Origin: Acidobacteriota bacterium
Lineage (GTDB): Bacteria > Acidobacteriota > G020349885
DNA: 49,762 nt
Direction of reading: 5' to 3'
NCBI GenBank assembly: GCA_020349885.1
Contig: CP070701.1
Coordinates: 2,181,177-2,230,938, forward strand
The position numbers and the translations under genes were made by a program. The stretch's first letter is position 1. Each line of letters starts with the position of its first letter. Shown piece by piece: positions 24,187-26,622 of this stretch. The notes under the pieces were generated by a model, which saw only the letters and a list, made by a program, of their open reading frames with translations, ran no database searches and was not told the origin of the DNA.

Positions 24187-26622
24187 ATGAACACCCTTGA
24201 CCGGTATCTCTTCAAGGAAATCCTGGGGCCGACCTGCCTGGGGTTCGCCATTTATACGCTGGCGATGCTTCTGAATCAGTTTCCGAGGCTCGCGGAAATC
24301 GCCGCGAAGCGCGGAGTCTCGCTTTGGGTCATCGCAAAGATGCTTTTGTCGAGCCTTCCGAGCATCGCTGTGCTCACGGTGCCGATGGCGTTTCTGGTCG
24401 GCCTCCTCATTGCCTTCAGTCGGATGTCGGCCGATTCGGAAATTACCGCGCTGCGGGCAAGCGGTGTAAGCTACGCTCGGATCTTCCGGCCGGCGTGGAA
24501 GCTCGGCGTCCTGTTTGCCCTCGTGACGCTCGTGATGACCTTGTTCGGCATGCCGTGGGGCAATTCCGCGCTCATCAACCTGCGCCTGAAGGTCTTTTCG
24601 ACCAACGTGGCCAAGGCCGTGGAGCCGCGCATCTTTTTCGAGGGCATTCCCCGTTTCCTCCTCTACTTCGACCATTCCGAGCCGCGTGATCCCTACGTAC
24701 GCCGCGTCTTCATCAGCCAGGAAACGCCCGGCCAACCCATGCAGCAGTCCGTGACGTTTGCCGAGCAGGCCCGCCTTTCGGTGGACGAAGAGAACACGCT
24801 TGTCGTTCACCTTGAAGAAAGCGAGACACATATCGTGGATCCCAGACAGCCGGACATCTATGAAAAAAGCGAGCAAGGGTCGCAGAACCTGAAGCCGCCA
24901 GAGGCGTCGTCTCGTGGTTTCATGCAGCAGCGCACGAAGGGACTGCGCGAGCAGACGCTCGGCGAGCTCTCTTCCACGCTTAAGAACTACAGGGCGACGG
25001 CGGACCCGAAGGCCCGCTTGCGGCAGGTCAATTCCGTATGGGTTGAGATCCACAAAAAATTCGCCATCCCCGTGGCATGCCTAGTGTTCGCGCTTCTCGG
25101 GATTCCCCTGGGCATCTCCAACGCGCGCGGCGGGAAAGTTTCGGGCTTCGTCATAAGCATCGGCGTGTTCATCGCGTACTGGATTTTTCTGTGGGGCGGC
25201 GAGCGCCTTTCCGACGAAGGCAGGCTTTCTCCGGTATGGGCCATGTGGTCGGCCAACCTGGTGTTTGCGGCGTGGGGCGCTCTTTTGTTTTGGAAGCGCA
25301 GCCGGAACGTGGACTGGGGAATATGGCGGCGGCTGCGCAAGCTCGCGCACGACCACATGCACGCTACGTTCGTTGTGGTCATCGCCCTGGGCATCGGCGC
25401 GTTCCTCGTGTACGGGATTCTTTCCGGAAACGGTGAAACCCCCTCGGACAAAGGCGGGCTTCCGCCGGTATGGACCATGTGGCTGGCTTTTCTCGCGCTT
25501 GCCGTGTTGGGCGTTTTTCTTCTTGGGCGGCACTACCTGAATCTTTTGGACCTCTATGCCTTGGGGCTTTTTGCCGGGTTCTTCGCGCTCGTTATGTTCT
25601 CCTTTCTTGCGTTGTTTTTGATTATCGAGGCCGTTCAGCTCGTTGATGATCTGGTCAAGCACGGCGTGTCCAGCCATGTATTCGCGAATTACCTGCTTTT
25701 TACGATCCCGCGCTTTGTCTCGTGGGCGCTGCCTCTGTCGGCCCTCGTCACGGCCATGCTCGCGGTAAGCTTCATGGTGCGAAACAACGAGGTCATCGCC
25801 GTGCACGCCGCGGGCGTGAGCGCTCTGCGCATGGCCGTTCCGCTGCTTCTGATATGCTCCGCCCTCTCGCTCGGGCTATTCACCCTGCAGGATTTCGTCC
25901 TCCCCACAACGAACCGGCGCGCCGAGCAGCTCAAGGACACCATCCGCGGCCGCTCTCCGCGCACCTACGCCAGGCCCAGCCGCCAGTGGATTTTCGGCGA
26001 GGGTTACCGCCTTTACAATTTCAGCATCCTAAATCCCGTTTCCGGCCGCATGCATGGCGTTCACGTGTTTACGCTCAACCCGATGACCTTCTCCGTGCGC
26101 GAGCGCGTGTTCGCGCGCACGGCCGTGTGGCAGGAAGAGAAGGAGTCCTGGCGCTTCGAGCGCGGCTGGGTGCGGCGCTTCCGCAACGAAGAAGAGGAGT
26201 TTGAGCCGTTCGACGTGCGCGAGTTCCCCTTCTCCGAATCCCCGGCCTATTTCGAGCCGGAGCGCTGGAAATCGCCCGACGTGATGAATTTCGTGGAGCT
26301 TCGGCGACACATCAAGGACTCCCGCCAGGCCGGCTACCAGGTGCGTTCCCTCGTCGTGAACCTGCACAAGAAATTTTCGTTTTCGCTCGTACCCTTCCTT
26401 TTGGCCATGCTGGGAATCCCCGTGGCGCTTCGTTTGGGACGGCACGGGGCGCTTTTCGGGCTCGGCCTGAGCATCGCTCTGGCCGTGCTTTACTATATCG
26501 CGTTCGTCTTCTTTAACACGATGGGTCTCCTGGGTACCCTTCCCCCCGCGCTTGCGGCATGGGCGGCCGATATCCTTTTCAGCATCGCCGGTCTCTACGC
26601 GTTCTGGCTCGCGCCGACGTAA
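24187..26622 (+). CDS. LptF-LptG fused LPS-export permease
   Basis: Inner-membrane permease that, with LptB, extracts LPS towards the Lpt bridge. Two YjgP/YjgQ units are joined in one 811-aa chain. The LptF part (about 1-375) has MNTLDRYLFKEILGP, DSEITALRASGVSY and a closing helix pair. The LptG part (from about 453) has HYLNLLDLYALGLFAGFF, NNEVIAVHAAGVSALRM and the final pair ending in LAPT. Periplasmic jellyroll segments lie in each half. Between them an extra helix pair (about 395-450) copies the LptF closing pair; LSPVWAMW and LPPVWTMW mark the duplicates, 78 residues apart. An even number of added helices keeps topology. Single-chain LptFG occurs in some phyla. Confidence 0.93.
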   Translation: MNTLDRYLFKEILGPTCLGFAIYTLAMLLNQFPRLAEIAAKRGVSLWVIAKMLLSSLPSIAVLTVPMAFLVGLLIAFSRMSADSEITALRASGVSYARIFRPAWKLGVLFALVTLVMTLFGMPWGNSALINLRLKVFSTNVAKAVEPRIFFEGIPRFLLYFDHSEPRDPYVRRVFISQETPGQPMQQSVTFAEQARLSVDEENTLVVHLEESETHIVDPRQPDIYEKSEQGSQNLKPPEASSRGFMQQRTKGLREQTLGELSSTLKNYRATADPKARLRQVNSVWVEIHKKFAIPVACLVFALLGIPLGISNARGGKVSGFVISIGVFIAYWIFLWGGERLSDEGRLSPVWAMWSANLVFAAWGALLFWKRSRNVDWGIWRRLRKLAHDHMHATFVVVIALGIGAFLVYGILSGNGETPSDKGGLPPVWTMWLAFLALAVLGVFLLGRHYLNLLDLYALGLFAGFFALVMFSFLALFLIIEAVQLVDDLVKHGVSSHVFANYLLFTIPRFVSWALPLSALVTAMLAVSFMVRNNEVIAVHAAGVSALRMAVPLLLICSALSLGLFTLQDFVLPTTNRRAEQLKDTIRGRSPRTYARPSRQWIFGEGYRLYNFSILNPVSGRMHGVHVFTLNPMTFSVRERVFARTAVWQEEKESWRFERGWVRRFRNEEEEFEPFDVREFPFSESPAYFEPERWKSPDVMNFVELRRHIKDSRQAGYQVRSLVVNLHKKFSFSLVPFLLAMLGIPVALRLGRHGALFGLGLSIALAVLYYIAFVFFNTMGLLGTLPPALAAWAADILFSIAGLYAFWLAPT

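Follow-up and report, generated by a model that had tools for sequence, protein, structure and literature searches.

The closest described systems are the LptB2FG(C) lipopolysaccharide (LPS) exporters of known structure (PDB 6mit, 6mjp, 5l75, and 6mhu), in which LptF and LptG are two chains. Passages of two published accounts (PMC6744409 and PMC10094684) describe the cleft of LptG TM1 and LptF TM5, the site of the LptC helix, as the presumed entry point of LPS. A published gene count, in the passage on these genes, gives lptF and lptG as apparently lacking in Acidobacteria (PMC8871954). The gene analyzed here, lptFG, lies on the forward strand at 24187–26622 of a 49,762-nucleotide stretch of an Acidobacteriota genome (the window). 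This genome is assembled as one 2.4-Mb contig and is 95% complete. The gene was defined by reading the ORF and by profile matches. It is a single frame of 811 amino acids that starts with ATG and is uninterrupted by stop codons. In contrast to the solved exporters, one chain carries both permease halves, and an extra transmembrane hairpin lies between them.

The two halves were assigned using family profiles and structure comparison. The LptF half (residues 1–372; 24187–25302) matches NCBIfam TIGR04407 at residues 4–370, which covers profile positions 2–347 of 347, and the whole protein scores 325.6 bits against a cut-off of 230. The LptG half (residues 453–811; 25543–26619) matches TIGR04408 at residues 454–806, covering profile positions 2–348 of 351, and the whole protein scores 323.9 bits against a cut-off of 240. 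Full-length matches exceed the curated cut-offs for both LptF (TIGR04407/PF03739) and LptG (TIGR04408/PF03739), and Pfam LptF_LptG matches three stretches of the 811-residue protein. Both halves match solved LptF and LptG chains in sequence and fold, with Foldseek TMt values of 0.63–0.82 for the best ten comparisons. The AlphaFold helices and strands together with Foldseek show that six TM helices surround a periplasmic jellyroll-type domain in either half, and each half shares with the solved exporters the strand-rich region between TM3 and TM4. A protein search of the 95%-complete genome found no second LptF/LptG match. The profiles on both halves bear out the preliminary description of one frame encoding an LptF-LptG fusion, and the gene product is most likely the fused inner-membrane permease of an Lpt lipopolysaccharide exporter of the LptB2FGC type.

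The occurrence of the fusion was surveyed across the phylum. The phylum was identified as Acidobacteriota from titled Acidobacteriota loci whose LptFG is identical to that of surveyed loci (L031 and L017; L043 and L092). LptFG matches were present in 389 of 396 genomes. A single frame of 700 or more amino acids held both halves at 94 of 97 phylum loci and in 62 of 63 GTDB families, the remaining three loci being partial frames. Because most loci were picked from the higher-scoring of the listed matches, these counts under-represent families that match weakly. A further 42 titled loci comprised 15 fusions of at least 700 amino acids and 27 that were not. Two of the 27 are partial frames (L041 and L044), and the rest are titled as other phyla and have no frame with both halves. 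One of the 15 fusions, L033, is placed among Aminicenantes in the tree; its record is titled Clostridiales and is probably a mislabeled metagenome bin. These data show that LptF-LptG fusion is usual in Acidobacteriota. Contrary to the gene count in PMC8871954, as given in the passage cited above, lptF and lptG are present in the phylum, as a fusion, and orthology searches may have missed them for that reason. We found no LptF-LptG fusion in print in titles, abstract openings, or passages of PMC10094684, PMC3688454, PMC8871954, and PMC8787282.

The linkers were compared in 115 rows, among which L051, L054, and L063 are not fusions and L041, L044, and L139 are partial frames. The other Acidobacteriota proteins have the same LptF-linker-LptG order in one frame, but their linkers are polar and have no hairpin, family f17 excepted. 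Leaving aside the window gene and f17, fusions in which both domain ends were found have linkers of 31–89 residues. L109 and L006 were flagged as hydrophobic since their LptF match stopped short, and no hairpin was seen when their linkers were read by eye. Kyte-Doolittle values of 1.6–1.8 occur in seven f8 rows, but in one stretch and not in two. A linker hairpin related to LptF TM5-6 was absent from the surveyed relatives. Beyond the window gene, a linker hairpin of any kind was found only in f17, at eight of eight loci (seven full ORFs and the partial L094).

The extra pair in the window gene is a repeat of the end of LptF. The preliminary description had noted that LSPVWAMW recurs as LPPVWTMW 78 residues away, with matching DNA at 25210 and 25444 (offset 234 bp). 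LSPVWAMW lies at residue 347 (nucleotide 25225) and LPPVWTMW at residue 425 (nucleotide 25459). Positions 25210 and 25444 fall within matching DNA and the 234-bp offset is present, but the true extent is longer and takes in the whole TM5-loop-TM6. Repeat alignment defines copy 1 as the native LptF TM5-loop-TM6 (residues 320–374; 25144–25308). A polar, basic linker start resembling the polar linker of relatives follows (residues 375–397; 25309–25377), and copy 2, the duplicated hairpin, occupies residues 398–452 (25378–25542), 234 bp downstream of copy 1; all these features are on the forward strand. An ordinary polar linker start (SRNVDWGIWRR; 25300–25332) is kept after TM6, ahead of copy 2. 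It is closely like SREVDFGIWRR of f2 (L026, L029, and L117), though f2 is distant in the tree.

The match between the copies was compared with chance expectations. Aligned without gaps from 25143 at an offset of 234, the copies are identical at 111 of 165 nucleotides; in frame from 25144 they share 110 of 165 nucleotides, 22 of 55 residues, and 14 of 55 codons. The next-best 165-nucleotide pair in the gene at any other offset of at least 60 has 85 identities and pairs LptF TM4-5 with LptG, a true homology. Class-preserving codon shuffles (n = 20,000) gave a maximum of 75 identical nucleotides of 165. A blastn search of the whole window with copy 2 returned copy 1 with E = 3e-13 and a next match at 0.27. 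The protein score between the copies is 105, whereas 5,000 class-preserving shuffles scored no higher than 62. The best 120-nucleotide match of TM5-6 to the linker has a value of 84 in the window gene; across 104 other ORFs this value averages 47.5 and peaks at 60. An LptF profile that included the window row itself recognizes copy 2 at TM5-6 positions 313–359 with 19.6 bits. Copy 2 scores 112 against TM5-6 of one f46 relative and 105 against its own TM5-6, so it is the DNA match and the offset that single out its own gene as the source, which the protein score alone does not. Judged from these sequence comparisons, copy 2 is beyond doubt LptF TM5-6, and the earlier view that the linker pair copies the LptF closing pair is upheld by the DNA and protein repeat and its controls. 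A general repeat finder run on the window did not pick up the 234-bp repeat, presumably owing to divergence. With only about two thirds of the DNA identical between the copies, an assembly artifact is unlikely.

Two hydrophobic segments lie at residues 389–416 and 423–454, and the first is preceded by a basic stretch (7 K+R). The hairpin ends about five residues ahead of LptG TM1. The AlphaFold model (21 sequences) has a mostly confident core, including the core of the LptF half, and a mean pLDDT of 80. It draws helices at residues 378–412 and 428–450 with pLDDT of about 40–56, which gives them no reliable position. Copy 2 is predicted to insert into the membrane, which would raise the number of transmembrane helices from 12 to 14. 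The reading we favor, and regard as probable, is that the fusion is older than the duplication and that the extra LptF hairpin is a membrane-embedded tether in a 14-helix LptFG. Long after the halves were joined, LptF TM5-loop-TM6 would have been copied into the cytoplasmic linker of the window's lineage, either by template switching or by a tandem duplication whose second linker was then lost. Linker loss or copying of the hairpin only is invoked because a plain 234-bp tandem duplication would leave another polar linker between copy 2 and LptG TM1, which instead lie almost side by side. The tether would hold the LptF C terminus near the LptG N terminus and would contribute little sequence-specific function. 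The preliminary description held that the extra pair keeps both halves in their native orientation, and an even number of added helices does so. The native topology did not need the extra pair: each half has six TM helices, so a cytoplasmic linker is enough, and the relatives make do with one.

The divergence between the copies was used to judge the timing of the duplication and the constraint on the hairpin. The NG86 method gave dN 0.43 and dS 0.46, values that are imprecise at 55 codons; the dN and dS values were 0.46 and 0.67 by LWL85 and 0.47 and 0.46 by YN00. Identical sites number 41, 32, and 37 of 55 at codon positions one, two, and three, so that the third position is no less alike than the first and second. 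The proteins differ at 60% of positions and the silent sites are unsaturated. Therefore, the duplication looks like a late, lineage-specific insertion under weak amino acid constraint. In the aligned LptF rows, S324, Y331, G338, E339, W354, and N357 of copy 1 are invariant and P349 and M353 are near-invariant. Copy 2 keeps six of these eight positions (Y, G, E, P, M, and W) and has G in place of S and F in place of N, and the six kept positions could reflect some constraint. The hairpin duplication is known from one genome, the only member of its class among those surveyed.

The extra hairpin should lie near the LptG TM1/LptF TM5 gate, because it ends just before LptG TM1. An alternative to a passive tether is that the hairpin is active at this LPS entry gate by the LptC helix, for example, by limiting its opening or guiding LptC. 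The short distance to LptG TM1 favors this idea, as does the LptC helix located at the TM1G/TM5F gate in the published structure, according to a passage of PMC6744409. Family f17, which appears to have gained an unrelated hairpin independently at the same place, also speaks for it. The linkers at the f17 loci (L003, L094–L097, and L100–L102) are 136–161 residues long and end in a conserved hydrophobic hairpin directly before LptG TM1. This likeness to the window gene is set against a long polar part of the linker and a hairpin that is unrelated to LptF TM5-6. Against a gate role, the amino acid change between the two copies in the window gene is near neutral and AlphaFold does not place the hairpin with confidence. 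We consider an active role at the gate possible but unlikely, and a tether is the best-supported role.

A second alternative is that the hairpin is ancestral and common to f17, and that its resemblance to LptF TM5-6 arose secondarily. Both proteins place the hairpin immediately before LptG TM1, and f17 is near in LptG identity (about 40%). However, the hairpins of five f17 loci score 23–31 against their own TM5-6 compared to 105 for the window pair, and the tree places f17 as the sister of f47, a family without a hairpin. A clade of f17 with f1, the window's family, was rejected with p-AU 0.008 in a test run after a first tree was seen. A tree of 100 rows had long branches and was replaced by a 68-row tree without the linker columns; nine rows were left out of it as long or divergent, and 23 because their groups were densely sampled. 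An ancestral hairpin is very unlikely on these data, and two independent additions, one in the window lineage and one in f17, are the simplest reading.

The preliminary description proposed that partial duplication of LptF created the fusion linker, which would make the copied hairpin the original joint of two once-separate proteins. The position of the hairpin in the joint and its origin from the LptF closing pair fit this proposal, but the phylum survey contradicts it. Fusions without the hairpin occur in 60 other families, and fusions lacking the pair were found for nearly all relatives, the window's own class being represented by this genome alone. The ordinary linker start retained before copy 2 and the low dS between the copies also argue against it. 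To rescue the proposal, the gene would have to be split and then fused again in the window's lineage. On the survey we reject duplication as the origin of the fusion, and we regard the proposal as highly improbable.

The partner genes were located in the same genome. LptB is at G000:C1:120120-120830 and scores 345 bits, over the cut-off. LptC has an N-terminal hydrophobic helix, and it shares one 657-residue frame with LptA/LptD_N-type domains (L142, 157–2130, reverse strand); f17 likewise combines LptC and LptA/LptD_N-type domains in one frame (L148, 605 amino acids). No PF04453 or PF19838 match for LptD was detected at E 0.001 in this 95%-complete genome, despite the presence of LptB, LptC, and LptFG; it is possible that LptD is divergent or lies in the missing 5%. 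The idea that the hairpin replaces the LptC transmembrane helix, raised by Pfam LptC matches that begin at profile position 40–46 in the hairpin-bearing genomes, has a negligible probability and was refuted on reading the LptC frames of this genome and of f17, which start with a hydrophobic helix that the profile failed to align.

The exporter itself is a known system, and the duplicated hairpin is a modest, lineage-specific structural variation on it. The fused LPS exporter tolerates extra membrane helices beside the substrate gate, on this evidence twice gained, a finding relevant to the freedom with which the LptF/LptG interface can be remodeled. More speculatively, and with the odds against it, the F-G junction would be a site of at least two independent hairpin additions, each right before LptG TM1, that could tune the TM1G/TM5F gate. 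If this is true, the junction hairpins are a natural experiment on exporter gating at the LPS entry point, which is also the site of the LptC helix.
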